Program-made: the position numbers and the translations under genes | The notes under the pieces: model-generated | What the model saw: the letters and a program-made list of their open reading frames with translations, nothing else | What the model was told of the DNA's origin: nothing | Databases searched by the model: none | Part shown: piece by piece, positions 13,446 through 32,931 of the stretch | Position numbering within the stretch: the first letter of the stretch is position 1 | How the letters are laid out: every line of letters starts with the position of its first letter | Origin: Bacillota bacterium | GTDB taxonomy: Bacteria > Bacillota > DSM-12270 > Thermacetogeniales > Thermacetogeniaceae | NCBI GenBank assembly: GCA_029907475.1 | Contig: JARYLU010000016.1 | Location: 1 to 62,673, forward strand | Length of the DNA stretch: 62,673 nt | Direction: 5' to 3'

Positions 13446-13500
13446 CTCCCGGACGGCGTCCGGTTGGTTCCCTCATGAAGGGTTATACCGGCGTCCGGCC
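13446..13500 (-). promoter_or_regulatory. Structured leader upstream of cluster 2 major pilin
   Basis: The 55 bp before the pilin ribosome site contain the palindrome CCGGACGGCGTCCGG (13449-13463), the 10-mer CGGCGTCCGG twice (13454-13463 and 13489-13498, + strand) and a CCCT...AGGG hairpin between them. Alternative pairing between the two copies is possible, as in an RNA switch or a dimeric operator. It does not match the c-di-GMP riboswitch consensus as I know it. Confidence 0.4.
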
Positions 13501-13534
13501 GTTTTTAGACACCTCGCGGCAATTTTTGCACGCG

Positions 13535-15214: not shown

Positions 15215-15225
15215 AGGGACCCCCA

Positions 15226-16503
15226 CTACTGCTTCTTCATCTCAATCTCACCCAGCAAATCCTTAATCAGCTTGATCTTGTCCGGCGTTTCCTCCACCCA
15301 GAGGACGTAGTACGGATTGTCTTTTATGCCGCCGGAAAGATCCCGCGAGATGTGCATGCTGCCCACCGGCACTCCGCTCAACTCACTGAGGAGCGACCGT
15401 TTGGCGTTGAGTTCTTCATGGGCGTATGGCCCTACTGCGTAAGTCACCGGCACCCGCACCTTCTGGCGCGGACTATCAAGGATCGCCAGGGCGTTGCGCA
15501 CCTGCGCCTCCAGGTGGGGCGGGCAGATGACCAGCAGTTCCTTGCTGTACTGCTCGTAGTTAAACGTCTCGATCTTCACCACGTCCTTTTGCTGGTCTTT
15601 ATCTTGATCTGTGTCGTTGGACGCCTCTGCGGCGCCACCTTTCACAAAGTCGAACTTCGCCAGGCGCGCCGCGGCGTCGCGCGCGACGATGTTCTGCAAC
15701 TGGTAGACGAAGGCCTTTTCTTCGCGGGCCTCCAGGCAGTCAAGCTTCTTGAACAGCGCCTCCACGTGCGGCCAGCGGGAGAACCATTGCCGGTCGAAGA
15801 CCAGGACGGTACCCGGCAGTAGGACGTAGCGTTTCAGTTGCACGCCCACGGAGTCAAGCAGTTCCACGGCCCTGGCGGGCGAAACCTGGTTGGGCGTAAG
15901 GCTGCGGTAGTCGAGGTTGATCTGGTTCTCCGGCTTGGGCTGGTTTTCCGGGTAGTCCACCGCCACCAGCAGTTCCCACACCTTGGCCACCTCCTGGGCC
16001 GTGCCCTGCACCCAGATTGCGTTCGGGTTGGCGTCCAGGGAGAGGCACTTCACGTCGCCTATACGCAGTTCATCAATCAGCTCTCGCAACTGCTGTGCTG
16101 TAACGTAGGTGGTGTCCAGCCGGGTGATGATCATCTGGCTGAAGAAGTTTTTGTGCAGTGTCTCCGGTTCCCCCACCACGAGCAGGTTGCCGTCCTCCAC
16201 GTAGGCCAGCCCCCTGCTCTGAACGATGACGTCAAGAGCCTGCCGCGCCGACATCTTTTCCGCCCGGAAGGTTATCCGGACCGGCTTGTCATCCTTGGTG
16301 GCCAGGATGATGACCGCGTTTAGCTTCAGGGCCAGTGCCGAAAGAACGTCGCGCAGGTCCGCGTCGCGTACGTCCAGGGACACCGTGCCGCCGTCCGCAA
16401 GCGGGAGGGCCGGGCTCCCGGGCGGAAAAGCCAGCCCTGCCAGCAGCAACAAGGCAAGCGCTGCGGCCAGTAACGCCGGTTGGCGCCGTTTCTTATCTTG
16501 CAT
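15226..16503 (-). CDS. Secretin N-domain protein without the pore domain (PilQ-like)
   Basis: Signal peptide (hydrophobic about 11-32), then an STN/N0 domain (VSLDVRDADLRDVLSALALK, VRITFRAEKMSARQALDVI), then N1-like modules (DTTYVTAQQLRELIDELRIG, AQEVAKVWELLVAVDYPE, KKLDCLEAREEKAFVYQLQN). The family's C-terminal secretin beta-barrel, with its VPxLGDIPxLGxLF-type segment, is absent and the protein ends at 425 residues. In a single-membrane cell no outer-membrane pore is needed, so the N-rings may align the pilus through the wall. It lies between pilP and pilB and overlaps the extended pilB frame. Confidence 0.8.
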   Translation of the reverse strand: MQDKKRRQPALLAAALALLLLAGLAFPPGSPALPLADGGTVSLDVRDADLRDVLSALALKLNAVIILATKDDKPVRITFRAEKMSARQALDVIVQSRGLAYVEDGNLLVVGEPETLHKNFFSQMIITRLDTTYVTAQQLRELIDELRIGDVKCLSLDANPNAIWVQGTAQEVAKVWELLVAVDYPENQPKPENQINLDYRSLTPNQVSPARAVELLDSVGVQLKRYVLLPGTVLVFDRQWFSRWPHVEALFKKLDCLEAREEKAFVYQLQNIVARDAAARLAKFDFVKGGAAEASNDTDQDKDQQKDVVKIETFNYEQYSKELLVICPPHLEAQVRNALAILDSPRQKVRVPVTYAVGPYAHEELNAKRSLLSELSGVPVGSMHISRDLSGGIKDNPYYVLWVEETPDKIKLIKDLLGEIEMKKQ

Positions 16504-16527
16504 GTCGTGTCACCCCTCCTGCCCTCG

Positions 16528-17043
16528 TTAACTTCCCGCGGCGCTCCGGCCCGATGTTGCGCGGCCGCCCAGTTCCAGGCGCAACTCCTGGTCGCCGCAG
16601 GTGAGTACCGCGTAGTCACGCCCGATCGTCTTCAGTTTCCAGGTGCCGGCGATGGTGGCTCCCGGTCCGGCTACGTAAGCGGTATCGCGCAGTTCAATGA
16701 TGGCCAGGTCGCCGCCTGCGCCCCCCCGGATTATACCCCGCAGGGCCATCGGCCCGGCAAACGGGTCCAGAAGCCGCTCTGCCGTGGTCTCCTTCTGCCG
16801 CTCGGTGTCCGGGAGAACAGTGTACTTCTCTTTTGTCGCCGCGGATACCTGGGGCGTTGCCGGCGTCCCGGCAACCGGCTGCTCGGCGGGCCTGCGCCAC
16901 AGTGTAAAGTACAGGGTAAGGATGACGGCCAGCACAAGACCCGCCGCCGCCCCGCCGATGATCAGGTTGCGCCGCCTCCTGGCCGTGGCCTCCTCGGGTT
17001 CTGGTCCCGGGCCGGCACTAACTCCGGGCAATTCCTGCGCCAT
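16528..17043 (-). CDS. PilP-like membrane-anchored protein (cluster 2)
   Basis: Start ATG 17043 has a perfect AAGGAGG. A short cytoplasmic part with an Arg run (ARRRRN) leads into a membrane helix (about 28-48), a linker, and a beta domain with LLDPFAGPMALRGIIRGGAGG...AIIELRDTAYVAGPG. That is the pattern of PilP/GspC homology domains (DPF-x(5)-L-x-G-I). PilP normally bridges PilN/O to the secretin N-domains, which matches the N-domain-only protein encoded just downstream. It overlaps pilO by 26 bp. Confidence 0.72.
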   Translation of the reverse strand: MAQELPGVSAGPGPEPEEATARRRRNLIIGGAAAGLVLAVILTLYFTLWRRPAEQPVAGTPATPQVSAATKEKYTVLPDTERQKETTAERLLDPFAGPMALRGIIRGGAGGDLAIIELRDTAYVAGPGATIAGTWKLKTIGRDYAVLTCGDQELRLELGGRATSGRSAAGS

Positions 17044-17605
17044 GTTCGGCCTCCTTTCCTTTCGCACCGCCATCCGCGGCGTAGAACGCGGTGGCAGAAA
17101 CGTCGGCTTTGATAAACGGGAACTCCTTCCGCCCTTTCCCCACCTTGACCTCGTCGATGCGCAGGGCACGGGGACCCGCCTGGAGTGCCGCCAGCAGTTC
17201 CACTAGGCAGGGATAGCGCCCCTCAAAGACAAGCTTGAGAGGCATCTCCACGTAGCCCGCCTTCGACACCCGCTTCTCGAACCGCACCTCCGTGAGGTCC
17301 AGGCCGGACCAGATGGCCGCCTCCTTGAGGTCGCGCAGGAGGGCGTCCTCTTGCGGTTCGGGAGGCAGCAGGTGGTTGACGCGCGCAAGCTCCTGCTGCA
17401 CCGCCACGGCCCGGGCCTTCGCCCGAACAAGCTTTTGCAGCTGGACCTCCGCCCGCGCCAGGGCCTCCCTTTCCCGGGCCACGGCGTCCCGCGCCCTGTT
17501 GAGGGCGCCGATCTGCAGGTAGAGAAGCATCCCCATACTGGCCATCGCCAGCGCGGCTAGGGCGACGGTCAGCACGGTGGAGGTCTGAAGTTTGCCGTTG
17601 TTCAA
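17018..17605 (-). CDS. pilO: Type IV pilus assembly protein PilO (cluster 2)
   Basis: Single N-terminal membrane helix (about 10-32), long coiled coil (ALNRARDAVAREREALARAE) and a C-terminal alpha/beta domain with YPCLVELLAALQAGPRALRI, the PilO signature region. Overlaps pilN by 4 bp and pilP by 26 bp. At 195 residues it is the standard size, unlike cluster 1 PilO with its long tail. Confidence 0.85.
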   Translation of the reverse strand: MNNGKLQTSTVLTVALAALAMASMGMLLYLQIGALNRARDAVAREREALARAEVQLQKLVRAKARAVAVQQELARVNHLLPPEPQEDALLRDLKEAAIWSGLDLTEVRFEKRVSKAGYVEMPLKLVFEGRYPCLVELLAALQAGPRALRIDEVKVGKGRKEFPFIKADVSATAFYAADGGAKGKEAEHGAGIARS

Positions 17606-18291
17606 CCTGCCTCACCCTCCCCTCCGAAGAGCACCCTGTAAGGCGGGCCCGGCTGTACGGCGGCCTTGATTTCGAACCTGACCACCTGCCTGCCCTCAAC
17701 TGTTTCGCCGGTGCTGAACTGGCAGCGCACGTCCGCCAGGCCGGGTACCCGGCGAATGGCCTCCAGCCATCCCGCTACCGCCGCGTGGTCCGCCGCCAGG
17801 CCCCGGAGGGTAAGCTCCCCCGCCCCCCCGGGTGCGCCGGTGGCCTCCGTTTGCAATGCCGGGGTGGCGCCGCCGGCGGGAGGCTCCTCCCCGGGCGGCA
17901 GGGGTTTTGGCGCTTGTTGCCCGGGCTTGAAGCTCGCCGAAAGGTCGGTGAGCCACACGACCGGCGGCAGGTCCCGGTTGACGTCCACCAGCAGTTGCGC
18001 CCAGTCGGGCGTCCGCCCTACCGCCTGCTGCAGGAGGCTCGCGGCCCGGTCGAGCCGTGCCTGCAGCGCCACGTACTCCCGGTATTGCTCCATCTCTTTC
18101 TCCACTGCCACGCGCCTTAGCTGCAGCGCCCGCGCCGCCGCTTCCGTCCGGAAGGTGGCGAGGAGAAGCGCCGCATAGGTACCGATAAAGACCAGGAGAA
18201 CCACGGCGCTTCCCACGAGCAGGACCGCGCGGCGCCGCTGTCTCTGCCGCTCGGCTTTCAGTTCCGGCGGCAGCAGGCTGATGGCTTTCAA
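17602..18291 (-). CDS. pilN: Type IV pilus assembly protein PilN (cluster 2)
   Basis: PilM-binding motif SLLPPELK near the start, basic stretch (ERQRQRRR), membrane helix (about 23-46), coiled coil and a domain with WAQLLVDVNRDLPPVVWLTD as in other PilNs. TTG 18291 is preferred because it overlaps the pilM stop (TTGA) and has GGAGGT six bases upstream; an upstream in-frame start at 18330 would overlap pilM more. A Pro/Gly/Ala-rich insertion lies in the middle of the domain. Confidence 0.84.
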   Translation of the reverse strand: MKAISLLPPELKAERQRQRRRAVLLVGSAVVLLVFIGTYAALLLATFRTEAAARALQLRRVAVEKEMEQYREYVALQARLDRAASLLQQAVGRTPDWAQLLVDVNRDLPPVVWLTDLSASFKPGQQAPKPLPPGEEPPAGGATPALQTEATGAPGGAGELTLRGLAADHAAVAGWLEAIRRVPGLADVRCQFSTGETVEGRQVVRFEIKAAVQPGPPYRVLFGGEGEAG

Positions 18292-19277
18292 GCTCGCACC
18301 TCCAATCCTCGCCGTGCCAGGCTTACGCACACCGCGAAGTCCGCCGCGAAGCGGCTGGCTTCCCCGGCTAGCCCGGGAGGCACGGCAATGTTCTCGGGCA
18401 GCCGTATAACGTCGACCGGCAGCCCCAGACTAGACTGCAGCCACGCCGCCAATCCTTCGGCCCGGGCGCCGCGCCCGCTCAGGATGACGGACCCCACCGG
18501 CGCGGCACCCGCCCGGCCCTGGTAGTAGCCGATTGACGAGCGAATTTCTCCCGCCAGGTTCTCCCGCCAGGACAGAGGCGGCTCTCCCGGCGGTTCGGGC
18601 AGACTCCCCGGCACCTCCGCCGCGTCCTTCAGCCCCAGGGGTATCAGCCTCGCCAGGCGCGGCCTCCCCCCCGCCGCCACCAGGATGTGGCTCAGACCGT
18701 TGGCCACGTCTACCACCGCCACGGCTTCCTTTTCTCCGCCGGACGGCAACAACCGCAGCAGGGCCAGGGAGACGACGTCAATATCCCGCGGCTTCAACCG
18801 GGCCGCCTCAAGGGTTTCCAGAAAGGCATCCAGCATGTCCCGCCGGGCCGCCACCAGCAGCACTTCGAGCTGCGGCCCCGCCTCCCCGGTCAGCTCACCC
18901 GTGACGGCGTAATCCAGTACGACCGTGCTCAGGGGTACAGGGAGGTAGTCCTGCGCCTGGTAGCGGAGCACCTGATCGATCTTGTTCGCGGCCACCCTGG
19001 GCAGCGCGGCGAACCGCACCAGCACCCCCTGGTTGGCCACCCCGAGCACCACGTGCCGCGTGGAAAAGCCCGCCTCGGACCAGAACTCCCGGAGCACGGC
19101 GGCCACAACGCCGGGCCGGACGACCATGCCGTCCGCCACCGCTCCCGCGGGAAGCGGGGCCCGCGCCATCTTTGTCAACCATGGGGCGCGCGCCTCGCCG
19201 CGCAGCTCCGCCGCCCGCACCTCGTTCGTGTCAAGCTCCAGGCCCACGGCGCGGCGGCCCGGACTCAGCCAGCCCAT
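18288..19277 (-). CDS. pilM: Type IV pilus assembly protein PilM (cluster 2)
   Basis: Actin-like fold markers: AVGLELDTNEVRAAEL at the N-terminus, VVLGVANQGVLVRFAALPRV, NKIDQVLRYQAQDYLPVPLS (PilM signature), AVAVVDVANGLSHILVAAGG (phosphate-2-like) and SVILSGRGARAEGLAAWLQ (adenosine motif). Full length at 329 residues. It heads the pilM-N-O-P-secretin-like-pilB block, the gene order known from diderm pilMNOPQ operons. Confidence 0.88.
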   Translation of the reverse strand: MGWLSPGRRAVGLELDTNEVRAAELRGEARAPWLTKMARAPLPAGAVADGMVVRPGVVAAVLREFWSEAGFSTRHVVLGVANQGVLVRFAALPRVAANKIDQVLRYQAQDYLPVPLSTVVLDYAVTGELTGEAGPQLEVLLVAARRDMLDAFLETLEAARLKPRDIDVVSLALLRLLPSGGEKEAVAVVDVANGLSHILVAAGGRPRLARLIPLGLKDAAEVPGSLPEPPGEPPLSWRENLAGEIRSSIGYYQGRAGAAPVGSVILSGRGARAEGLAAWLQSSLGLPVDVIRLPENIAVPPGLAGEASRFAADFAVCVSLARRGLEVRA

Positions 19278-19314
19278 TTTTCTCTACCAGCTCCTTTACC
19301 CGCCAGATTTGCAC

Positions 19315-20784
19315 CTATTCCCGCCGCCAGGCGACGATTTCCCATCCCGCGTTCACCGGCTCCAGAAAGTGCGGCGGCGTGTCGTAAAGCATGCGGGGGT
19401 CGTGGTGATAGTCCTTGCTGTAACCGCTGCGTCGGGTGCCACTCCCTGAATAGAACGTACCGACGGCGCCACGGTACTTCTGGGTGATCGAACCGCGCAG
19501 GGTGATCACGCCCTTGAGCAAGCCTCGGTCGTACTCTTCAAATTCAAAAGCCCAGTTGAGGGCAAATATCGCCGCGTAAATCGATATATCGCGTGGGGCC
19601 ACATCGCCCTCGGGAGTGTAGTAGGGCGTCCAGTCCCACAAGCTCCCGGGCCGGTCGTGGGGCCAGTCGTAATGCAGGATGCGCACGTAACCGGCGGCAA
19701 TCAGGCCGAGCATGTCGTCGGTCATCCCCCCCGCCGGGTCGAGGTCGGTGTTGGCGTACCGCAGGCCTCCCGTGGAGGCGGCCGCACTGTAGTTGAAATT
19801 TGTCGGGTCCTTCCCCGTGATGTAAATGTCCTTGGCGGCGGCGATGGTCAGCCGGCCGTCCAGGGTGCCGGAAACGAAGGCGTTGCCCATCGCGGGGTCA
19901 TATTTCGACGTTGTGGGGTCACCTTCCGGATCAGCGGTGGTCCCGTCGACGTAGATGACGCCGTTGGAGGGCAAGGGCCTGGTCTCCTCCACAAAATCGT
20001 AGCGCCTCGCGCCGGCATTCCACACGGGGTACTTAACTCTTATCTGGCTGCCGTCCAGCAGGATGCAGGTGCGCCCCCGGAAATAGTACCCGTCCGGCTG
20101 CTTGGCCCAGGTCATGAGCTGGCTGTTGGAGGCGGGAAACCCCAGGGGCGACACCTTCTCCGGCGGCCCTTCGGCGTAGTACGGGCTGCTGCCGGGCCGC
20201 ACGTTCAGCCCCACCGAGTATGTAACGGGGCCGTAGAACTCCGGGCGGCCGTCGATATTCAGCGTGCCGTTGGTGTGCAGCGGGCCGTAGCACCTGTCGC
20301 CCGTGATCCACCACACGTCTTCACCGTCTGGTGGTGGCGTTTTTTCCTGACCGGTCAACCAGATGTGCTGCACAAACTGCCGTTTGTGGACTTCCGCCCG
20401 CACCGTGCAGCGGTTCGAGGGGTCGTCCGCCGGCCAGCCGGTGGACCTGATGGTCACCACCGGCCGCTCCGGGCCGGGATCCGTGACCTCGAGCTGGTAG
20501 TAGCCGCCGGTCACGGAATGCACACGCGGGTTTGAACCGTCAAAGACAAAGCTGTCGTCGTGCTCGTAAAACTTCGAATCCTTGTTCAGATGCCACAGGT
20601 ACTCGTGGACGCCGGCCTCGGCGTAGTAGAAGGCGTCCTGGTGCCCGCTGAAGCGGCTGCCCATTTTCACCTGGCTTTCCACGATGTAGGCGGCCGCGAA
20701 CCCAAGGAGGCTCACGAGGGCTACGGTTGCCACCACCAGGGGCAGGGCCAGGCCTTTCCGGCCCAGACCGAAGCTCCTCATCAA
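19315..20784 (-). CDS. Large PilX-like minor pilin (cluster 2)
   Basis: N-terminus KGLALPLVVATVALVSLLGF is a non-canonical pilin helix, and DAFYYAEAGVHEYLWHLNK is the conserved segment found in PilX-type proteins of Firmicutes. The 430-residue C-terminal part is Trp/Tyr-rich, with GDRCYGPLHTNGTLNIDGRP and later repeats, resembling DUF4900-type domains. Start ATG 20784 overlaps pilW by 4 bp. A surface or tip role is inferred from size and position. Confidence 0.7.
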   Translation of the reverse strand: MMRSFGLGRKGLALPLVVATVALVSLLGFAAAYIVESQVKMGSRFSGHQDAFYYAEAGVHEYLWHLNKDSKFYEHDDSFVFDGSNPRVHSVTGGYYQLEVTDPGPERPVVTIRSTGWPADDPSNRCTVRAEVHKRQFVQHIWLTGQEKTPPPDGEDVWWITGDRCYGPLHTNGTLNIDGRPEFYGPVTYSVGLNVRPGSSPYYAEGPPEKVSPLGFPASNSQLMTWAKQPDGYYFRGRTCILLDGSQIRVKYPVWNAGARRYDFVEETRPLPSNGVIYVDGTTADPEGDPTTSKYDPAMGNAFVSGTLDGRLTIAAAKDIYITGKDPTNFNYSAAASTGGLRYANTDLDPAGGMTDDMLGLIAAGYVRILHYDWPHDRPGSLWDWTPYYTPEGDVAPRDISIYAAIFALNWAFEFEEYDRGLLKGVITLRGSITQKYRGAVGTFYSGSGTRRSGYSKDYHHDPRMLYDTPPHFLEPVNAGWEIVAWRRE

Positions 20785-21365
20785 TGCCCGCCTCCTTTCC
20801 CACGCACCGTCAATATGGTGCTCAGCTTAACCGGGCGCGTCAGGGGAGTGTGCACGTCGCCGCAAGACAATTCGAGCTGAAGCGCCTCCCGTGCGTTCGG
20901 CGTGCCGGGATCGCCGTCCAGGTCAGGGATACCGAAGCTCAGGGCCGTCACCCCGGCGAGGACTAACTCCCAATCGGCCGGAACACCGTAGGCGTAGGGA
21001 AAAGCGTCGTTGCCGGGCGGCACGACGGCGCGCTGCAGCGTGTTCCCTTCCAGACGGTAGAACACTTTCTCGGGCCGCGCGTCGCCGCTCACGTCGGCGT
21101 ACAGGTGCACCCGCGTGGCCGACTCCACCACCAGGGCGCCCTCGGCCGATGTCGCCACCTGCGCGTCCCTGACTTCCCAGCTTAAACGGGCAAGAAACAG
21201 GCGCACGTCCTGCAGCACCCGCGCCTCGGCCAGGGCCCGGTCGGCGCTCCGCTGCGCGTAGAACATGTACTGGTAGACGCCGCCGAGCACGATGCCCAGC
21301 AGGGCCAGCACCACCAGAAGCTCGGCCAGAGAAAAGCCGGCCCTGCCGCGGGGGGCGCCGTCCAT
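20781..21365 (-). CDS. Minor pilin, PilW/GspJ-like (cluster 2)
   Basis: Prepilin site AG|FSLAELLVVLALLGIVLGGV with +5 Glu, then the helix QDVRLFLARLSWEVRDAQVA typical of PilW/GspJ, and a beta domain. The start is uncertain. ATG 21365 gives a 10-residue leader; the frame stays open upstream to 21437 and a TTG near 21381 is possible. It overlaps the PilX-like gene by 4 bp. Confidence 0.78.
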   Translation of the reverse strand: MDGAPRGRAGFSLAELLVVLALLGIVLGGVYQYMFYAQRSADRALAEARVLQDVRLFLARLSWEVRDAQVATSAEGALVVESATRVHLYADVSGDARPEKVFYRLEGNTLQRAVVPPGNDAFPYAYGVPADWELVLAGVTALSFGIPDLDGDPGTPNAREALQLELSCGDVHTPLTRPVKLSTILTVRGKGGGH

Positions 21366-21393
21366 CCTTCCGGGCGGCAAGCTGCGAACCGCC

Positions 21394-22839
21394 CTACGGC
21401 CCGGGCGGCACCGGTTCCAGCGAAACAGTATAGACATCTATCTCAGTCCCTCCGCTCTTTTGCAGGCCGCCCTCCACCCGGAAGGCGCCGTGGTCAAACC
21501 GCGACTCGTATCCCGCGGCCGCGACGCGGACACAGTACAGGGTGTAAGTGTCACCCTCTTCCGGTTCGGGCGGCGGCGGGACGTTGTCCTTGAGCCGGAA
21601 GTGCACCCTGCCGTCACCGCCCGTTACCCCGGAATCCACCGGCTCACCCGAGCACGCTTCCGACCACCCACCCTGACTGTAAGTCCAGGTGTGCAGGAAG
21701 ATTTCCACCCGAGCCCCGATCAACGGCTCCCCGGTGGCCGCGTCCCGGACCTCCACCCTGCTGCTCGGCCACAAACGTACGGTTATTTCCTTCGTCTCCC
21801 CCGGCGCATCGAAGGTGCCGTCCCAACCAACTTCGGGCGGCTCGACCGGCCGGTACCCCTCGGCCCGCACTTCAAGGCGGTAAGCACCGGGATAACCCTC
21901 GCCTACCGGCCAGAGGTCGCCCCAGAGATCGGCGCCCAGGAACCCGTTCATTTCCGGGGTGAAGGACACCCGGACAACATCCCCGTATGGTATTTCCTGG
22001 GTCAGGGTGGCATCACCACCAGCCGTTATGGGTGCACCGGTGAGCGCGTCGATTAACCGCACGTTGAGGTGGCAAGGCTTTTCGACTTCGAAGACGACCG
22101 GCACGGTTATTCCCTCGGCGACACCAACGCTCTGACGGACCTGGTCGGGACGGACCATCATTCCAGCGCCGCGGGCATCTGCCTCCACCGTATAGGTACC
22201 CGCGTCAAGGATAGCGAAGAGCGCTTTGCCGCGCTCGTCGGTCCAGAGGGTCTGGGGCGCGTCCGGCCCGGCGGTGAGTTCCACCTTCACATCCGCCACC
22301 GGGACCGGCTCCCCGGGGGTTGTCTGCCAGCCCCGCTGCGCTTTGGCCAGGATGTTGCCCCCCGGAAAGGCTTCCTCCTCGCCCTCCAGGGAGGCAAGGG
22401 ACCGGAACTCCGCGGTTCTGACGACCTGCCCGGTGAAAAGGCCGGGAGCGCTCACGCTCACCCGGACCTGCTTGTAGTCGTACGGGATCGGATCCGTCCC
22501 TTCCTCGGCGGTGCCGTCGCTCGGGTCGTCTACCCACCAGATGTCGGTTCGCACCGTAAAGGTGCGGCCGTCACGGCTTATCACCTGCTCGTGGGGGATA
22601 GGACCCCCTGGGTTTCCTCCCTGCACGCCGATCCTGCCGTACGGGAGGCCGCGGATCTGCTCCAAAACGCCCGCCGCCAGCTCGGCGGCGATGAACCTGG
22701 TCCGGTTGGCCTGCGAGGCCTCGCTGATGTAGACGAAAAGAGGCGTGAAAGCAAGCGCCGTGACCAGAAGGACCGCCAGCGCCACCAGGATCTCTACCAG
22801 CGTGAAGCCTTCCTGCCCGATCCGGTTGGGCTTGCGCAT
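21394..22839 (-). CDS. Giant PilV-like minor pilin with carboxypeptidase-regulatory-type domains
   Basis: Leader MRKPNRIGQEG|FTLVEILVALAVLLVTALAF, then AAELAAGVLEQIRGLPYGRI (PilV/GspI spine). Unlike a normal 130-190-residue PilV, it continues to 481 residues. Two or three Ig-like repeats of the CarboxypepD_reg type follow: ADVKVELTAGPDAPQTLWTD...GTYTVEADARG; YRLEVRAEGYRP; VRDAATGEPLIGARVEIFLH...YTLYCVRVAAAGYES. ATG 22839 has GGGGGCGGT upstream. Such domains are common in surface adhesins, so a pilus-tip adhesin is a reasonable inference. Confidence 0.76.
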   Translation of the reverse strand: MRKPNRIGQEGFTLVEILVALAVLLVTALAFTPLFVYISEASQANRTRFIAAELAAGVLEQIRGLPYGRIGVQGGNPGGPIPHEQVISRDGRTFTVRTDIWWVDDPSDGTAEEGTDPIPYDYKQVRVSVSAPGLFTGQVVRTAEFRSLASLEGEEEAFPGGNILAKAQRGWQTTPGEPVPVADVKVELTAGPDAPQTLWTDERGKALFAILDAGTYTVEADARGAGMMVRPDQVRQSVGVAEGITVPVVFEVEKPCHLNVRLIDALTGAPITAGGDATLTQEIPYGDVVRVSFTPEMNGFLGADLWGDLWPVGEGYPGAYRLEVRAEGYRPVEPPEVGWDGTFDAPGETKEITVRLWPSSRVEVRDAATGEPLIGARVEIFLHTWTYSQGGWSEACSGEPVDSGVTGGDGRVHFRLKDNVPPPPEPEEGDTYTLYCVRVAAAGYESRFDHGAFRVEGGLQKSGGTEIDVYTVSLEPVPPGP

Positions 22840-22853
22840 ACCGCCGCCCCCTT

Positions 22854-23567
22854 TCACCGCAGGTACTGCGCCAGGTACGCCAGGCCGCGCGCCAGGAGGC
22901 GCGAGACGCGGCGCTGGCCGATACCCAGGCGCGCCGCCGCCTGGGTCTGTGTCAGGCCACGGTAGAAAATAAGGTAGATGACTTTCCGCTGCAGCGAACC
23001 GAGTTTCTCCAGCGCCTGCCGCACGGCGATACGGTCCTCGATGGGCAGATGGAAGCTCTCGTAGCGCAGGTGCCGGATACGGGAGAGATCCAGTTCGTCC
23101 AGGCTCACCCACCCGGCGCGCAGCGCCTGCCGCACCCCCTCCACCCGGATGTTTGCCGCCCTGGCCACGGCTTCCAGGGTTGGCGGTGCGCCCGTCTGCT
23201 GCAGCAACTCGTCGGCTGCCCGGTAGATGCGCGCCTGCACCTCTGCCACCCACGCCGGGCGGTCGAAGGAGGCCTCCCGCCGCAACTGGTGCCGGATCTC
23301 GCCGAGGACGCAGTGAGCGGCGAAGGTGGAGAAGCGCACGCCGCGCCGCCGGTCGTACCGCTTGACCGCTTTTAGGAGCCCCTCATACCCTGCCTGCACC
23401 AGGTCCTCGAAGGGCGGCCCGCCAGCGTACCAGCCAGCGAAGTGATGCACTAGGCCGGCTCCGGCCTCGACGAGTTCCCGCAGGCCTTCCTCACTGGGCG
23501 CCGCGAAATACGCCTCTGCCGCCGCTTCCAGGTCGGGCCTCTTCCCACCAGCCGCGTTCACCGCCAC
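22854..23567 (-). CDS. RNA polymerase sigma-70 family factor embedded in pilus operon
   Basis: Region 2 is clear: PPFEDLVQAGYEGLLKAVKRY then RFSTFAAHCVLGEIRHQLRR (2.3/2.4). A region 3-like HTH follows (PPTLEAVARAANIRVEGVRQ) and region 4.2 is LTQTQAAARLGIGQRRVSRL. The layout resembles the SigB/SigF/SigG/FliA group; there is no region 1.1. GTG 23567 has GGGGAGGTGA upstream. It lies 7 bp after pilC and 14 bp before the giant minor pilin, in the same direction, so it is co-transcribed with pilus genes. No anti-sigma gene is adjacent. Control of this cluster is inferred. Confidence 0.85.
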   Translation of the reverse strand: MAVNAAGGKRPDLEAAAEAYFAAPSEEGLRELVEAGAGLVHHFAGWYAGGPPFEDLVQAGYEGLLKAVKRYDRRRGVRFSTFAAHCVLGEIRHQLRREASFDRPAWVAEVQARIYRAADELLQQTGAPPTLEAVARAANIRVEGVRQALRAGWVSLDELDLSRIRHLRYESFHLPIEDRIAVRQALEKLGSLQRKVIYLIFYRGLTQTQAAARLGIGQRRVSRLLARGLAYLAQYLR

Positions 23568-23573
23568 TGCGGC

Positions 23574-24818
23574 TCACCTCCCCACCGAGGTGACAACCAG
23601 AAAGATTGGAAGGTAAAGGGATATCACCATCACGCCCACAAGGCAACCGACGAAGATGATCAGAATCGGTTCGATCATGGCGGCCAGCCCTTTGGACAAG
23701 GCGGCCACCTCCGCCTCGTAAAAGTCTGCGACCCTGGTCAGAAGAGACGGCACGTTGCCCGACTCCTCACCGACGTTGATCATTTCGATAACCATGGGCG
23801 GGAAAACCCCACTTTCCGCGAGGGGTGCGGCAATGCTCTTGCCCTCCTGGATCCTTTCCCCCGCGGCACTCACCGCTTCTGCCACCAGTGTGTTCCCCGA
23901 AGCCGGCCCGGCAGTTTCCAGGGCCTGGAGCACCGGGATGCCCCCGGCCAGGAGGGTGGCAAAGGTGCGGCAGAACCGGGCGATGACCGCCCGGTGGACC
24001 AGCGGGCCGAACACGGGAAGGCGGAACTTGACGTGGTCCCAGGTACGGCTTCCCGCGGGGCTGCGCAGGTAGGCGCGTATACCGAAGACGGTGGCACCGG
24101 TGCCCAGGAACCACAGGAACCACCAGTGACGCAGGGAGTTCGAAACGGCGATGATAATCCGCGTAGGCAATGGAAGGGTCATCCCCGCAGGGAAGAACTT
24201 CATAAAGATGGGCACAATGAAAAACATCATGCCCAGGAGAACAAGGATGGCAAAACAGACCACCACCGTCGGGTAAAAGGTGGCAGACCGTATCTGGTCG
24301 CGCAGGGCCTTATCGCGTTCAAGTTGCTCCGCCAGGCGGTTGAGCACTTCTTCCAGGGTGCCGCCCACCTCGCCGGCCCTGACCATACTTACGTAGAGGG
24401 AAGGAAAAACGTGGGGATGAGCGGCCAGGGCATCCCCGAAGCTCATGCCACCCTCCACGTTGCGGGCCGCGTCCTCCACCGCGTCGCGTAGCGCCGGGTT
24501 GGTGATCTGGCGGGCCAGGGTAAAGAGCCCCCGGGTCAGCGGGATGCCGGCACCCAGCATGGCCGCCAGCTGGCGGCTGAACAGAGCAAGGTCCCCCACA
24601 GCAACCTTCCGGCGCGAGCGGAAGGCGACCCGGAAGATCGATGGTGTAACCGCGCCGACTTCGACCACGATGTACCCCATCTGACGCAGGCGGTCGACGA
24701 CCGCTTCCTCGTTCTCTGCCTCTAATCGCCCGTACACCGGCGACCCGGTGCGGTCGACAACCTGATAAGCGTAAAGGCCCACGTCTTTACCCGCCTCCTC
24801 CCCCGTCAGACTCAACAC
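23574..24818 (-). CDS. pilC: Type IV pilus inner-membrane platform protein PilC (cluster 2)
   Basis: GspF/PilC-family protein with N-terminal AYQVVDRTGSPVYGRLEAEN, two T2SSF domains (LALFSRQLAAMLGAGIPLTR and IARFCRTFATLLAGGIPVLQ), GEVGGTLEEVLNRLAEQLER and GEESGNVPSLLTRVADFYEA loops, and three or four membrane helices. The 414 residues are complete. It starts 3 bp after pilT's stop. Confidence 0.94.
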   Translation of the reverse strand: MLSLTGEEAGKDVGLYAYQVVDRTGSPVYGRLEAENEEAVVDRLRQMGYIVVEVGAVTPSIFRVAFRSRRKVAVGDLALFSRQLAAMLGAGIPLTRGLFTLARQITNPALRDAVEDAARNVEGGMSFGDALAAHPHVFPSLYVSMVRAGEVGGTLEEVLNRLAEQLERDKALRDQIRSATFYPTVVVCFAILVLLGMMFFIVPIFMKFFPAGMTLPLPTRIIIAVSNSLRHWWFLWFLGTGATVFGIRAYLRSPAGSRTWDHVKFRLPVFGPLVHRAVIARFCRTFATLLAGGIPVLQALETAGPASGNTLVAEAVSAAGERIQEGKSIAAPLAESGVFPPMVIEMINVGEESGNVPSLLTRVADFYEAEVAALSKGLAAMIEPILIIFVGCLVGVMVISLYLPIFLVVTSVGR

Positions 24819-24821
24819 TCA

Positions 24822-26078
24822 TCAGGTTCTCTTTCTCTGCAGCAGCCTTTCCAGTTCTACCTTGTCCACGCAGCGCGAAAAAGCAACCTCCTGGGTTATC
24901 TTTCCGGCCAGGCACAGGTCGGCCAGCGCCTGGTCCATAGTCTGCATCCCCAGGGAACGGTTCGTTTGAATCACGGTGTAGAGCTGGTGCTCTTTGCCCT
25001 CACGGATCATGTTCCGCACCGCGGGTATGGCCAGCATCAGCTCCACGGCGAGCACCCGCCCACTGCCGTCGGCGGCGGGTAACAGTTGCTGGGAAATCAC
25101 CGCCTGCAGCGAGTCGGCAAGCTGCTGCCGGATCTGCTCGCGGAGATACTCCTGGAAGACATCCACGATGCGGTGGATGGTGAGAGGTGCGGTCTGGGTA
25201 TGCAGGGTAGAGAAAACCAGGTGGCCCGTCTCGGCGGCCGTAAGGGCGATGGAAATGCTCTCCAGATCGCGCATCTCGCCGACCAGGATCACGTCCGGGT
25301 CATGGCGCAGGGCGTGCCGCAGCGCCTCGGCGAAGGAGCGGGTATCGCTCCCCACCTCGCGCTGCTTAACAATCGACTTTTTATGCCGGTGGAGGAATTC
25401 AATCGGCTCCTCCACCGTCAAGATGTTCACGCTGCGCTCTTCGTTAATGATATCAATCATCGAGGCCAGGGTCGTCGACTTGCCGCTGCCCGTGGGCCCC
25501 GTCACCAGAATCAGCCCGCGCGGAAGATCGCAGAGACTCCTTACGGCAGGAGGCAGACCAAGGTCTTCCAGTCGCGGAGGGTTGTAGGGAACCACGCGAA
25601 AGGCCGCCGCGATGCTCCCGCGCTGGAACATCAGGTTGCCGCGGAAACGGCTCAGGCCCGGGATGGAATAGGAGAAGTCCAGTTCCAGCTTCTCCCGAAA
25701 GGCTTCGCGCAGGGACCGATCGAGTCTGGGAAGTATGAGCGCCTCCACATCGCACGGGCGCAGCAGGGGAAGGTCCAGGAATACCAGTTCGCCGTGGATT
25801 CTGGCCACCGGGGGCGCCCCGGCGGTGAGATGCAAATCCGAACCCTTCCGCTCAATGGTGTACCTGAGTAGTTCATCCAGATCCACGGGATACGTCCTTG
25901 CAGTAACGGCAGTCTCTTCTTGCCCACCGTGCCCGCCGGCAGTATGATGCCCCACGTCGATCCCTTCGCGTAGCGAGGCGATGGCCGCGCCCTGGGTGTC
26001 TGCCTCCACCCGGCCGGTCACCATGCCGCCCGTGAGATTTCGCGCCCGGTAAATAAAGGTCTGCTCCATTCTAACCAC
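24822..26078 (-). CDS. pilT: Pilus retraction ATPase PilT with a PilC-derived N-terminal extension
   Basis: Residues about 62-418 are a complete PilT: DLHLTAGAPPVARIHGELVF, Walker A GPTGSGKSTTLASMI, Asp box TVEEPIEFLH, Walker B DVILVGEMRD, His box STLHTQTAPLTI and AVRNMIREGKEHQL, close to the retraction-specific AIRNLIRE motif. Residues about 4-38 (MEQTFIYRARNLTGGMVTGR, VEADTQGAAIASL) are instead the N-terminus of a PilC. The gene therefore looks like a fusion formed by deletion between a pilC and a pilT. The PilT part may still be made, either whole or from an internal start. Confidence 0.9.
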   Translation of the reverse strand: MVRMEQTFIYRARNLTGGMVTGRVEADTQGAAIASLREGIDVGHHTAGGHGGQEETAVTARTYPVDLDELLRYTIERKGSDLHLTAGAPPVARIHGELVFLDLPLLRPCDVEALILPRLDRSLREAFREKLELDFSYSIPGLSRFRGNLMFQRGSIAAAFRVVPYNPPRLEDLGLPPAVRSLCDLPRGLILVTGPTGSGKSTTLASMIDIINEERSVNILTVEEPIEFLHRHKKSIVKQREVGSDTRSFAEALRHALRHDPDVILVGEMRDLESISIALTAAETGHLVFSTLHTQTAPLTIHRIVDVFQEYLREQIRQQLADSLQAVISQQLLPAADGSGRVLAVELMLAIPAVRNMIREGKEHQLYTVIQTNRSLGMQTMDQALADLCLAGKITQEVAFSRCVDKVELERLLQRKRT

Positions 26079-26207
26079 CTACCCCTCAGCACCGCTCCCG
26101 GTCGTGCGCCCGGTGCAGAAACCTCTTCCCTGCCGATGATGCCCTTGAAGAGCGCTACGTGGATGTCCAATGTCCTAATTCCAGCAGTATGGGAAATAAC
26201 TTCGACA

Positions 26208-26275
26208 TTAGCCCCATTTTTCCTCTCTGTACAGGAAAAATATTACGACCTTAGCCTCATTTTTCCTCTCTATAC
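26208..26275. repeat. 25-bp tandem repeat at the pilB remnant 3' end
   Basis: TTAGCC(C/T)CATTTTTCCTCTCT(G/A)TAC occurs at 26208-26232 and 26251-26275, 23 of 25 bases identical, 43 bp apart. The right copy encodes the last residues (YREEK, stop) of the truncated pilB, so the left copy is a partial duplication of that 3' end. A scar of slippage or recombination is likely. Confidence 0.7.
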
Positions 26276-27029
26276 GCGACGCGCATAATTTCTTTTATCG
26301 TGGTGACGCCTGCAAGCGCCTTCTGAATGCCGTCCTTTCGCGGGAGACGATGCCGTGGCTCATCCGGCGCGGCAGCCGGATCACCTCCCGCAGCATGCCG
26401 TCGACACGGTACCGGACCCTGATGTCCTTCTCCTGCGGCTCGATGTGGATGTCGCTGGCCTCCTCGTCCAGGGCGCGCATGATCAGCGAGTTGACCAGTC
26501 GGATGATCGGCGCCTCGTCGACGATTGCCTCCACCATTTCCGCGTCCGCCGCCTCCGGCTCGCCGCCCAGTTCCCTGAGTACCTTCTCGACCTCGGGAAG
26601 GCCAAAATGTTTCTCGATAAGGGCGTTGATCTCTTTCTCGCTGACCGTTACAGGTTCGATGTCCAGTCCGGTAATCAGGCGCAGGTTGTCGATGGCCACA
26701 ACGTTGGAAGGATTCGCCATGGCCACGTGCAGGCGGTTGCCCTTTTTCCCGATGGGAAATAACCTGTACTCGCGGATGAGTTGTTCCGGAACGAGCTTCG
26801 CTACCTCAGGTTCTATATATCCCCAAGACACGTCCCAGAAAGAGAGTTCCCCGGCTTCAAGCACCCGGCTGAGCTGTTCCTCGCTCAACATGCCCAGCCT
26901 GATCAGTACCTGGCCCAGCAACTCGCCGGTGCGCATCTGCTCACGTAATGCCTTTTCAAGCTGCTCTCTGGTAAGCAGGCCCGCCTGCACGAGCCGTTCA
27001 CCGAGCAGCTGCCTCCTTGCTGCAGCCAT
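26257..27029 (-). pseudogene. pilB: pilB with ATPase core deleted (N-terminal MshEN half plus C-terminal tail)
   Basis: Residues 1-60 are a good MshEN-type domain (LLGERLVQAGLLTREQLEKA, LGQVLIRLGMLSEEQLSRVL). It continues through the usual linker to ASDIHIEPQEKDIRVRYRVD and LPRRMSHGIVSR. Then the reading frame shifts and the extreme PilB C-terminus follows (DGIQKALAGVTTIKEIMRVA, stop at 26257). Walker A, Asp, Walker B, His boxes and zinc cysteines, about 280 residues, are missing. The frame-shifted ORF ends at 26295. The MshEN part could still be translated as a lone c-di-GMP-binding protein, but the ATPase is dead. Confidence 0.88.
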
Positions 27030-27135
27030 GTTTCCCCTCCTTCCGTGACGTATTCGCCGTCTACAACCATTTTCCTTTTCATGTAGGAAAAAATGCCTGA
27101 ACCGGAAGTCTCGTCCTGAAAAAAAGGTTTTATCG

Positions 27136-27274: not shown

Positions 27275-27341
27275 TGCAGGAATTTTTTGATTAATCTAGA
27301 AATTTACACACACTTAACATAAGTTCAAGGTGGCGGAAAAT

Positions 27342-29036
27342 ATGCTGGCCAGAAGAAAGCCGCTCGGCGAACTGCTTGTGGAAAACAACATTATCACCAA
27401 CGAACAGCTTCAGGAGGCACTCCGCCTCCAGGAGTCTAAAGGAGAGCGACTGGGTCAGATTTTGCGCAAGCTGGGCTACATCAGTGAAGAAAAGCTGTAC
27501 AGAGTGCTGCAGGAACAGCTGAGAATCCCCTATATCGAACTGCGCCGCTATCCCGTCAACCCCGCCCTGGCCCAGCTTATTACAGCACCGGTGGCCCGGC
27601 GTTACCGCGTCTTGCCTATTGCTAGAGAAGAAAATCAGATCGTCCTCGCGATGGTCAATCCCCTCAACGTCTTCGATATGGACGAAATTTCCCAGATTGT
27701 TGGGAGTGAAGTGAAACCCGTTCTGGTCTCCGAAAACGACCTCGAGTGGGCTTTAAGCGAGTTTCTAGAGTTGAAAAGCTCGGTAGATAAAGCAGTTGAA
27801 GGACTCCCCCAAGAGATTCAAGGCTGGCCCGAGGAAGAGATCGCGGCGGCAAAAATCCGCGAGATCGTTGAAGAAGGTCCTGTCGTCACCCTGGTCAACT
27901 CCATCATTACCAGGGCGGTGCTCAACCGGGCAAGCGACATTCACATCGAACCCCAAGAGGAGGAGTTAATGGTCCGCTACCGGATCGACGGGGTTCTTTT
28001 CGAAATGCTCAACCTCCCCAGGCGGATCCACCCGGCGGTGAGTTCGCGCCTAAAAATTATGGCCGATCTGGACATTACAGAACGGCGCCTCCCTCAAGAC
28101 GGGCGGATCCAAATGGAGGTCGAGGGCCGTTCCGTAGATGTGCGGGTTTCCGTGATTCCGACAATTTACGGGGAAAAGCTGGTTCTCCGGATCCTGGATA
28201 AAACAACCGGCTTCCTGACCATTCCTCAGCTTGGATTCGCACCTGAGATCTATCCTTCTTTCGTGAACATGCTCCGCAAGCCCCACGGTCTGCTCCTCGT
28301 AACGGGGCCTACCGGGAGCGGAAAAACAACCACCCTCTACGCGATCATCAACGAGTTAAGTGTGAAAGAAAAAAATATCGTAACCATCGAGGATCCTGTC
28401 GAGTATACCATTCCCCTTGTGAACCAGATGCAGGTCAACCCGAAAATCGGACTCACCTTTGCGCGGGGGCTCAGGGCGATCTTGCGGCAGGATCCCGACA
28501 TTGTCATGGTAGGCGAAATCAGGGATACCGAGACTGCCCAGATTGCCGTCCAGGCGGCCCTCACGGGACACCTCGTCCTAAGCACCCTGCATACCAACAG
28601 TGCAGTGAGTTCTGTCATCAGGTTGATTGACATGGGAGTAGAGCCGTACCTCCTGGGGTCCTGTTTAATCGGAGTTATCGCGCAGCGCCTCGTTCGGAAT
28701 ATCTGTCCTGAGTGTAAGGAGGTTTACCAGCCTTCGCGTGAAATTCTAACCAGCCTCAGGATCCCGGAAGAGGATGGAAAGGTGGCGTTTTGGCGGGGCT
28801 GGGGGTGTTCTTCGTGCCGCATCACAGGATACCAGGGAAGGCTCGCCCTCCAGGAAATCTTGATCATTGAAGGAGAACTTAAAGACCTGATTACCGCAAA
28901 GGTACCGGAACAGAGGCTCCAGCACGCAGCCCTGTCCCACGGGATGCGGACTTTAAGAGAAGATGGAATCGAAAAAGCGAAAAGGGGTCTAACCACACTG
29001 GAGGAGGTGATGACCGCCGTATTCTGGCAAGATTAG
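27342..29036 (+). CDS. pilB: Type IV pilus assembly ATPase PilB (cluster 3)
   Basis: Complete extension ATPase with MshEN-type domain (LGELLVENNIITNEQLQEAL, LGQILRKLGYISEEKLYRVL), Walker A GPTGSGKTTTLYAII, Asp box TIEDPVEYTI, Walker B DIVMVGEIRD, His box STLHTNSAVSSVIRLIDMG, and zinc pairs CPEC and CSSC. ATG 27342 is preferred because AAGGTGG lies nine bases upstream; an in-frame GTG at 27330 is an alternative. Base composition matches cluster 1 rather than the GC-rich cluster 2. pilC follows after 12 bp. Confidence 0.95.
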   Translation: MLARRKPLGELLVENNIITNEQLQEALRLQESKGERLGQILRKLGYISEEKLYRVLQEQLRIPYIELRRYPVNPALAQLITAPVARRYRVLPIAREENQIVLAMVNPLNVFDMDEISQIVGSEVKPVLVSENDLEWALSEFLELKSSVDKAVEGLPQEIQGWPEEEIAAAKIREIVEEGPVVTLVNSIITRAVLNRASDIHIEPQEEELMVRYRIDGVLFEMLNLPRRIHPAVSSRLKIMADLDITERRLPQDGRIQMEVEGRSVDVRVSVIPTIYGEKLVLRILDKTTGFLTIPQLGFAPEIYPSFVNMLRKPHGLLLVTGPTGSGKTTTLYAIINELSVKEKNIVTIEDPVEYTIPLVNQMQVNPKIGLTFARGLRAILRQDPDIVMVGEIRDTETAQIAVQAALTGHLVLSTLHTNSAVSSVIRLIDMGVEPYLLGSCLIGVIAQRLVRNICPECKEVYQPSREILTSLRIPEEDGKVAFWRGWGCSSCRITGYQGRLALQEILIIEGELKDLITAKVPEQRLQHAALSHGMRTLREDGIEKAKRGLTTLEEVMTAVFWQD

Positions 29037-29048
29037 GGGGGAGAAGCA

Positions 29049-30263
29049 GTGCCGACTTACTTTTACCGGGCAAGAGACGCCGAAGGTTTAATCCATTCAG
29101 GTACTTTCGAAGCAAACAGTCCTTCTCAAGTCGTGGAACTCATGAACGCGGCCGGGCTTTTTGTGACGGACTTAAAACCTCAAAAAAGTGAAACCTGGAA
29201 GGAGCTTTTTCTCTTTCGCCAAGTCGCTTATAAAGACCTGGCGGCTTTCAGTCGCCAGTTGGCAGTAATGGTACGCGCCCAACTTCCGATCGTGAGGGCT
29301 CTTGAGATTCTGGTGGCCCAGTCGCCCAATTTTCACTTAAAAGAAGCGGCGTCATCACTCAAGAGCCGGGTTGAAAAAGGCAAGCCCCTTCACGAAGCGC
29401 TCCGCCAGCACCCCACTGTTTTTCCTGAACTGTACGTAGCCATGATCGAAGCGGGGGAGCAATCAGGAACACTGGAAGAAGTGCTCGTACTCCTTGCCCA
29501 GCACTACGAAAAGGAAGACGCAGTCGTAAAAAAGGTAAAAAGTGCCAGCCTGTACCCACTAATAATTCTTGGTTTCGCCATCTTAATGGTAATTTTTCTG
29601 CTCACCTTCGTCCTGCCCAGATTTGCCAAAATTTTTACCAATCTTGGTGCCGGCCTCCCCTGGCCCACCCGCATCTTATTGGGCTTTGGAAATTTTCTGA
29701 TCAATTATTACCCGTATCTCTTTCTTGTCCTTCTGCTCGGAATCGGAGCCGCCTTCATATTCCTCAGAACCGGGGAAGGAAAACACTGGTGGGACCGGAT
29801 GGTCCTCAAGCTTCCAGTTTTTGGAGCGATCTACCTCCGGCTTGCGGTTTACCGCTTCGGGAAAATCCTGGGGAATCTAGTCCATGCCGGAATCCCGATC
29901 TTGCAGGCCCTTGAGATTGCTGCAAATACCGTAGGAAACCGGGTAGTCGCAGCGGGAATTATGGCGGCCCGTGCCAACATTCGCGAAGGGGAACCGATCG
30001 CCCACCCGCTGGCCGCAGCGGGGGTTTTCCCGCCGATGGTGACGGAAATGGTCGCGGTAGGCGAAAATACAGGAACGCTCGACGAAATGCTGCACCAGGT
30101 TGCAGAATATACCGAAGGGGAGTTGAACTATACTCTCGAGAGTCTTACCTCTCTGTTGGAGCCGGTGCTGATCCTGGTGGTTGCCGGAATTGCGGGGTTT
30201 ATTATTTTGAGTATCTTCCTGCCGATCGTGGGCACGTGGAAAGCTCTGGGGGCAATAAGGTAG
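29049..30263 (+). CDS. pilC: Type IV pilus inner-membrane platform protein PilC (cluster 3)
   Basis: N-terminus TYFYRARDAEGLIHSGTFEA, two T2SSF domains (LAAFSRQLAVMVRAQLPIVR and VYRFGKILGNLVHAGIPILQ), loops GEQSGTLEEVLVLLAQHYEK and GENTGTLDEMLHQVAEYTEG, and membrane helices near 170-190, 215-235 and 370-395. GTG start with GGGGGAG upstream. 404 residues, complete. Confidence 0.94.
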   Translation: MPTYFYRARDAEGLIHSGTFEANSPSQVVELMNAAGLFVTDLKPQKSETWKELFLFRQVAYKDLAAFSRQLAVMVRAQLPIVRALEILVAQSPNFHLKEAASSLKSRVEKGKPLHEALRQHPTVFPELYVAMIEAGEQSGTLEEVLVLLAQHYEKEDAVVKKVKSASLYPLIILGFAILMVIFLLTFVLPRFAKIFTNLGAGLPWPTRILLGFGNFLINYYPYLFLVLLLGIGAAFIFLRTGEGKHWWDRMVLKLPVFGAIYLRLAVYRFGKILGNLVHAGIPILQALEIAANTVGNRVVAAGIMAARANIREGEPIAHPLAAAGVFPPMVTEMVAVGENTGTLDEMLHQVAEYTEGELNYTLESLTSLLEPVLILVVAGIAGFIILSIFLPIVGTWKALGAIR

Positions 30264-30317
30264 AGACAAGCTGAGCTTGGTGAGAAAAAACGAAATAAAA
30301 AACCAGGGGGGGTTAAA

Positions 30318-30647
30318 ATGCTTTGGATTCACCGGAGACGCAAGCAGGAAGGTTTTACTTTAATTGAGTTGCTCGCGGTAGTAGCCATTCTCGCCGTCCT
30401 GATCCTGATCGCAGTTCCGATCATCACTTCTAACATCAATGACGCAAAAATAACCTCATGCGAGTCGAACATCAAGATGCTGAATTCTGCCATCCAGCGG
30501 TACTACTTTACGGAAGGGAAATACCCAGATTCTTTAGATGATTTGGTAGGAAAGTACATCGACGAGAAACCAAAGTGTCCAATCTCTGATAAGGATTACG
30601 ACAGTGATTACGATAAAACGACGGGAAAAATTACACACAGTCATTAA
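30318..30647 (+). CDS. pilA: Type IV pilin (cluster 3)
   Basis: Short prepilin with leader MLWIHRRRKQEG and site EG|FTLIELLAVVAILAVLILIAVP. The globular part is only about 70 residues, with ESNIKMLNSAIQRYYFTEGK, PDSLDDLVGKYIDEKPKCPI and one Cys pair (C in TSCES and KPKCP). The layout is like ComGC-type and small Gram-positive pilins. ATG has a G-rich ribosome site (AGGGGGGG) upstream. Likely the major subunit of cluster 3. Confidence 0.9.
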   Translation: MLWIHRRRKQEGFTLIELLAVVAILAVLILIAVPIITSNINDAKITSCESNIKMLNSAIQRYYFTEGKYPDSLDDLVGKYIDEKPKCPISDKDYDSDYDKTTGKITHSH

Positions 30648-30739
30648 TAGCCATTAAGAGAAAGCAATTCTTGATCAACGTTACAAATTTGCTTAGTTTC
30701 TCCATGTAACCTAAGGAAACCATAGGGTTAGGATGGGTT

Positions 30740-31150
30740 ATGACTTCTCTAAAGATGGTAGTCTTTAAAAACGAGAGTGCGTTCACGCTGGTCGAGGTGG
30801 TGGCGGCCACCTTCATTTTGGCCGTGACCTTAACTGCTCTCATTGCCCTCTACCAGGAGAGCCTGGGCTTGAGCGCCGGCGCGGGAAACGTTGCCAGGGC
30901 CACGGCCTTCGCCCAGGCAAAAATAGAGGAACTGCGGGGAAAAAATTTTGCGGACCTGAAGAACGCCATCGGACAATCCGCCCCTGAGAAATCTCCCGAT
31001 GGGGTTTACACCCGGGAAGTTACCATCATTCAAGAAACTCCGGACAAAAAACTCCTCCGGATCCGGGTCCTGGTGCGCTGGCAGGACGACCTGGGGGAGC
31101 AAAAAGTATCCCTCACCACCCTGTTGGCAGATACGGGAAACGGGGGCTGA
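30740..31150 (+). CDS. Minor pilin, PilV/GspI-like (cluster 3)
   Basis: Prepilin site SA|FTLVEVVAATFILAVTLTAL, where the residue before Phe is Ala, not the usual Gly, so processing may be less efficient. The helix ATAFAQAKIEELRGKNFADL matches PilV/GspI. The 93 bp before it contain a small imperfect hairpin (30707-30730) and no gene. Confidence 0.78.
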   Translation: MTSLKMVVFKNESAFTLVEVVAATFILAVTLTALIALYQESLGLSAGAGNVARATAFAQAKIEELRGKNFADLKNAIGQSAPEKSPDGVYTREVTIIQETPDKKLLRIRVLVRWQDDLGEQKVSLTTLLADTGNGG

Positions 31151-31154
31151 GAGC

Positions 31155-31637
31155 ATGAAAGTTCAAGACGGGCTTAAAAAAGTTTTCGGGCAGGAGGGCT
31201 TCACTCTCGCCGAGGTCCTCGCAACTCTCGCTATTCTAAGCCTTGTCGTAACCTGCACCACCATGATCCTGGGTCAGTCCCTGGGTATCTGGCAAACCAC
31301 CTCGGCGCAGTCCTTCAGCCACCTGGGCGCAGAGCTCGGATTGCATTATCTGGCGCGGGATCTTCGCCTTGCCACCGCCATCGTTGTACCCAACGATGAC
31401 GACCCGAGCCACAATTTTTTAAAGCTCAAGCGGGGCACCAGGGAGATTGAATATTCCCTTGAAAACAGCACCCTTACGCGGAGCGTCAACGGCATAAAAA
31501 CCGCCGTTGTCGACGATCTGAAAGATTTTTCCGTGCAGAAAATTAGCAGGCGGACCTACTCCATCTCGATAACGGCACGGGTGGAAGCGGAAGAATTTCA
31601 ACTAACATCTCAAGTCTCGCCCCGGACCGCAAATTAG
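31155..31637 (+). CDS. Minor pilin, PilW/GspJ-like (cluster 3)
   Basis: Site EG|FTLAEVLATLAILSLVVTCT with +5 Glu, then SHLGAELGLHYLARDLRLAT as in PilW/GspJ. ATG 31155, 4 bp after the preceding stop, gives the normal leader; the frame is open upstream within pilV but that is overlap only. 161 residues. Confidence 0.8.
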   Translation: MKVQDGLKKVFGQEGFTLAEVLATLAILSLVVTCTTMILGQSLGIWQTTSAQSFSHLGAELGLHYLARDLRLATAIVVPNDDDPSHNFLKLKRGTREIEYSLENSTLTRSVNGIKTAVVDDLKDFSVQKISRRTYSISITARVEAEEFQLTSQVSPRTAN

Positions 31638-31673
31638 CGGGCGCGGCAATGACAAGAGGAGGTTTTCTCCACC

Positions 31674-32915: not shown

Positions 32916-32931
32916 AAGGGAGACTGGAATA

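Follow-up and report, generated by a model that had tools for sequence, protein, structure and literature searches.

A group-3 sigma factor encoded within a type IV pilus operon of Bacillota and its putative pilA promoter

A gene for a sigma-70-family factor, denoted here as SIG, lies within a type IV pilus machinery operon in a stretch of 62,673 nucleotides from a bacterium of the phylum Bacillota (the window, whose positions are used below wherever no locus is named). It is very likely that this factor serves one particular type of type IV pilus, that it is produced together with the machinery operon and that it directs RNA polymerase to a single promoter, that of the major pilin gene pilA, so that expression of the fibre subunit would very probably be turned on by SIG when production of the machinery is under way. 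The observations that bear on this proposal are the class of the protein, the linkage of its clade to one pilus type, and the association of this clade with a sequence dyad conserved upstream of pilA.

The SIG gene and its pilus cluster

The SIG ORF (22854–23567, minus strand) encodes a protein of 237 residues and starts with a GTG preceded by a strong Shine-Dalgarno sequence (GGGAGGTGAGCCGCA-GTG). The Pfam domains Sigma70_r2 (53.6 bits), Sigma70_r3 (28.0) and Sigma70_r4 (47.5) were all recovered above their cut-offs, confirming the first-pass annotation of a real sigma gene with regions 2 to 4 between pilC and a minor pilin. The gaps of 7–14 bp mentioned there hold for the downstream side, where 14 bp lead to the minor pilin ATG at 22839, but only 6 bp separate SIG from pilC. 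The presence of regions 2, 3 and 4 without region 1.1 corresponds to the group-3 layout, and region 3 sets the protein apart from the ECF layout (regions 2 and 4 only). Among NCBIfam models the best was that for SigB/SigF/SigG (SigBFG; 125.7 bits, cut-off 234); spore_sigF gave 100.6 bits (equivalog cut-off 321) and FliA_WhiG 79 bits (subfamily cut-off 189.6), all three scores lying below the cut-off of the model. The structure predicted from 12 orthologues (mean pLDDT 80) had solved sigma factors as its nearest Foldseek neighbors, with S. aureus SigB among the top ones, and the closest solved structure by sequence was 1l0o chain C, a sporulation SigF whose label says no more than "sigma factor". 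Judged by these features, SIG is a group-3 (SigB/SigF/SigG-like) member of the sigma-70 family. Neither a FlgM-like nor any other anti-sigma-like gene was found next to it, in the window or in the other loci read, in agreement with the earlier annotation. A further, weak sigma-like ORF of 116 residues (42329–42679, minus strand) is located just 3' of a serine recombinase gene (42700–44262).

The surrounding genes, denoted as cluster 2, are all encoded on the minus strand. SIG is preceded by pilT (24822–26078), a retraction ATPase gene recognized by its T2SSE Pfam domain and by comparison, with the residue of a PilC-like N-terminus ahead of it, and by pilC (23574–24818), encoding the platform protein and assigned from its ORF and the loci of relatives. 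It is followed by a pilV-like minor pilin gene (21394–22839; N_methyl Pfam), a pilW-like one (20781–21437), whose translation contains RAGFSLAELLVVLALLG, and a gene for a PilX-like protein (19315–20784; PilX_N just below cut-off). Then come pilM (18288–19277), pilN (17602–18330) and pilO (17018–17605), assigned by synteny and blastp, a pilP-like gene (16528–17169; position and blastp to relatives) and, at the pilQ position, a gene for a secretin N-domain-like protein (15226–16503; Secretin_N and STN just below cut-off). The next gene, the second pilB of the cluster (13535–15226), belongs to the SIG-associated machinery, as pilB genes 70–72% identical to it occur, within the family, only in genomes that carry SIG. 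Directly 3' of this pilB lies pilA, which the first-pass annotation had overlooked together with the promoter-like dyad before it. This candidate major pilin gene (13056–13436), whose translation shows the class III leader KNRKG^FTLVE, probably starts at the ATG at 13427, which is preceded by the Shine-Dalgarno sequence AGGAGG. A second pilin-like gene (12548–12922; Pfam N_methyl) lies 3' of pilA, possibly on the same transcript, and the pilD prepilin peptidase gene of the cluster (10349–11194) was identified by blastp to orthologues beside pilT in relatives.

Cluster 2 (10200–27030) has a G+C content of 65.6%, against 51–53% on either side and about 48% where the genome was sampled, and genomes of the same genus lack SIG. 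From this contrast and this absence, the cluster looks to have been acquired as a module, and the module, composed of the sigma factor, the machinery and a tagged pilin gene, looks portable. At its upstream end (24822–27029), PilB is shortened by an internal deletion and the N-terminus of PilC is fused to PilT; this region is what is left of a pilB-pilC unit, located upstream, that relatives carry intact. Around 26220–26275, a short TTTTTCCTCTCT repeat recurs. Two more type IV pilus clusters (276–10156 and 27330–35087) are located within the same 35 kb, and their pilin genes lack the motif described below.

A clade of sigma factors tied to type IV pili

Relatives of SIG were present in 11 of 60 related genomes, at 45–65% identity and, in one case, 38%. 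The gene follows pilC in all 11, pilT precedes pilC in most, and pilM-N-O-pilB come next, directly or past minor pilins, wherever the contig is long enough; this recurrence of the pilC-SIG neighborhood in many genomes argues that the placement of SIG is not due to chance. When 398 genomes of the phylum were searched with a SIG profile (A1), a clear score gap appeared, with 25 matches in 24 genomes at 193 bits or more and the next one at 141 bits. All matches of at least 193 bits fall in type IV pilus loci, including the rearranged ones (L098, L101, L102, L103 and L170), where SIG has other neighbors and the pilus link is kept. The matches at or below 141 bits include SigF of spoIIA operons, and the two such loci that were read (L105 and L106) are spoIIA-like. 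Maximum-likelihood analysis separated these high-scoring proteins from the rest of the tree by a branch supported at 100/100. The pilus-operon sigma clade, defined by a score of at least 193 bits to profile A1, membership in this single clade, location in a type IV pilus locus and the motif before pilA, has about 30 members in Bacillota, each in a type IV pilus locus and usually in the order pilT-pilC-SIG-pilM-N-O, and SIG displays all four properties. A homolog from an Armatimonadetes MAG (L045:1230–2255, plus strand; 51% identity) joins at the base of the clade, has a roadblock-like gene next to it and is not in a pilus locus. In a plasmid collection, SIG relatives appeared only at 30–36% identity among the best matches listed.

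Two paralogs of SIG of about 350 residues (L098:1773–2834, minus strand, and L104:9547–10593, plus strand) carry a PilO-like domain in place of region 4. In these proteins, encoded in genomes G357 and G199, the PilO-like domain lacks the membrane helix and its Pfam score is just below cut-off; in G357 the paralog directly adjoins SIG. The predicted fold, of low overall confidence, matches sigma factors, and PilO crystal structures are among the best matches.

A conserved dyad upstream of pilA

Reading the DNA upstream of pilA genes across relatives revealed a repeated pattern, TGTCTAA-N14/15-GGTATAAC. In the window it is represented by TGTCTAA-N14-CGGTATAAC (13482–13511, minus strand; GTCTAA-N14-CGGTAT in its core), about 24 bp past the stop codon of the second pilB and some 46 bp ahead of pilA, and would constitute the −35 (TGTCTAA) and −10 (CGGTATAAC) boxes of a putative SIG-dependent pilA promoter, with transcription presumably starting at about 13475. 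The exact dyad has a single copy in the 3.01 Mb genome, the expectation for the window being 0.01. A weight-matrix scan of the window gave 37.9 for the pilA site and 12.7 for the next best, which lies outside cluster 2; because this very site contributed to the matrix, it is the gap and not the raw score that matters. The same scan of the window yielded no site upstream of pilT, pilC, SIG, pilM or pilB, so that the shared motif anticipated by the first-pass annotation before pilM, pilB and pilA was found for the last of these and not for the other two. A wider SIG regulon was considered and rejected: genome sites with two mismatches (51) barely exceeded those of a reversed-pattern control (35), and the sites with one mismatch (L206, L207) lie near genes with no recognizable relation to pili.

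Among the 398 genomes, the exact dyad precedes a pilin gene in 15 of 25 SIG-bearing genomes and in 1 of 373 SIG-less ones (Fisher p 9e-20, a value that overstates independence because the genomes are related). These counts include genome G316 as SIG-bearing; before its reassignment they were 14/24 and 2/374. G316 had first been screened as SIG-less, and the motif led to its pilA, directly adjoined by a SIG orthologue of 181 residues (L170:16206–16751, minus strand), the only one without region 3 and hence ECF-like in layout. In the sole remaining exception, G075, the motif-bearing pilA lies beside decayed remnants of SIG-type pilB and pilC. Variants of the dyad before pilin genes in G060, G065, G103, G134 and G312 raise the count to 20 of 25 SIG-bearing genomes and 11 of 13 families, the genome-by-genome search for near-matches having covered the SIG-bearing genomes. 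No pilin match was found in G043 and G199, the motif is missing from G007, G008 and G009, whose SIG contigs stop short of the pilA position or are disrupted there, and G024, whose SIG is 38% identical, has only a degenerate dyad (TGTCTA-N15-AATCATAA). The pilin genes of relatives without SIG (G001 and G003–G006) are not preceded by the site. Both boxes are conserved while the rest of the intergenic DNA cannot be aligned between genomes. A second pilin gene of G018 also carries the dyad (L053:1561–1594, plus strand; CGTCTAAAAATGACAAATATCCGGTATAAC), suggesting that the number of SIG-dependent pilins may exceed one in some genomes. The pattern offers a promoter rule that points out the major pilin where pilin-like genes are numerous.

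The dyad resembles promoters of the SigB type, for which the consensus is GTTTAA-N15(±2)-GGGTAT (PMC9847131): GTCTAA-N14-CGGTAT differs from it by one base per box and its spacing is within range. Such a promoter is what would be expected from the sigma class of SIG, and the classes of protein and promoter, judged independently from the SigBFG model and from the dyad, agree.

Proposed mechanism and alternative readings

In the proposed mechanism, the machinery operon pilT-pilC-SIG-minor pilins-pilM-N-O-P-Q-pilB would be expressed first, SIG included; SIG would then bind the dyad and direct RNA polymerase to the specialized promoter GTCTAA-N13/14-NGGTAT before pilA, and the abundant filament subunit would be made second, in a manner resembling that of FliA with flagellin and of cyanobacterial SigF with pilA. 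Since the motif is found at pilA alone, this order, with machinery first and filament subunit second, is suggested rather than a self-amplifying loop. Thus, the central idea of the first-pass annotation, a dedicated pilus sigma factor with a motif of its own, is upheld by the clade, the pilus linkage and the promoter motif of the cluster, whereas its proposed target changes from the whole cluster to pilA and the suggested autoregulation is not retained. A more tentative extension, which we regard as rather unlikely, is that the platform proteins PilM, PilN and PilO hold SIG and let it go, pilin synthesis being thereby deferred until the machine is complete. The sigma-PilO fusion of G357, with its homolog in G199, would then be a visible trace of the contact between SIG and the platform.

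That SIG might drive the entire cluster, itself included, in a positive feedback finds a precedent in the autoregulated SigF of Synechocystis (PMC2758279). However, besides the lack of machinery-gene sites in the window, which leaves feedback on cluster 2 unsupported, no such site exceeded the threshold in eight further loci (L047, L048, L050, L051, L054, L056, L094 and L095), and in L096, L097 and L100, where pilC and pilA diverge, the site between them is oriented toward pilA; we therefore hold this possibility to be quite improbable. It is also improbable that the dyad is a strong housekeeping promoter, or the site of a pilA regulator, and that SIG, merely carried in the operon, controls stress or surface genes. 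The −10 box does contain TATAAC at a housekeeping-like 17–18 bp from TGTCTA, and alternative sigma factors with a single target are unusual. Yet TGTCTA is a poor TTGACA, both the GG before TATAA and the TGTCTAA box are foreign to the housekeeping sigma factor, and the dyad matches the SigB type in both boxes and in spacing; moreover, motif and SIG co-occur over 11 families, the pilins of related SIG-less genomes lack the dyad, and the motif predicted a SIG that had been missed.

The probability that chance brought a common sporulation factor, SigF or SigG, to this position is virtually nil. Such an identity would be in keeping with the membership of SIG in the SigB/F/G superfamily and with the presumed identity of 1l0o chain C, but the spore_sigF score falls far short of the cut-off, the fully supported tree places SIG in a separate clade apart from the sporulation sigma factors, as the check proposed in the first-pass annotation was meant to reveal, and the genome contains other SigB/F/G-like genes. 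The linkage to pili recurs in many families, and the neighbors are pil genes and not those of a spoIIAA-spoIIAB-sigF operon. Tree, scores and synteny together rule this candidate out.

The closest analog of SIG, the pilus-dedicated factor proposed here, appears to be cyanobacterial SigF, also a group-3 factor, which acts on the major pilin gene as SIG is predicted to do. In Synechocystis, SigF directly transcribes pilA1 (PMC2758279) and, in Nostoc punctiforme, only pilA is stringently SigF-dependent among the characterized hormogonium genes (PMC6495340). Its −10 element, GGTAA, resembles the GGTATAA of the dyad, whereas the −35 elements differ (TAGGC versus TGTCTAA); in addition, SIG, unlike cyanobacterial SigF, is encoded inside the machinery operon and gives no sign of autoregulation. 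Bacillus SigB shares with SIG the superfamily and a similar promoter (PMC9847131), but it governs a general stress regulon of more than 200 genes under Rsb regulators, while SIG has none of these nearby and apparently a single target. FliA (sigma-28) is likewise encoded with a surface organelle and controls its filament subunit, flagellin, as proposed for SIG and pilin, and in Bdellovibrio FliA controls tad (flp) pilins (PMC5430801); it differs from SIG in belonging, by score, to another sigma subgroup, and SIG has no adjacent FlgM-like anti-sigma. If pilus assembly gates SIG, type IV pili would have an equivalent of the FliA/FlgM checkpoint that does without FlgM. Sigma factors go unmentioned in a survey of Gram-positive type IV pili (PMC3244431), and no description of a Gram-positive pilus sigma was found in the open-access literature, to which our search was confined. 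A sigma factor encoded in the operon for a pilus machine and directed, apparently, to a single promoter would represent a clean Gram-positive counterpart of flagellar FliA and of cyanobacterial SigF.
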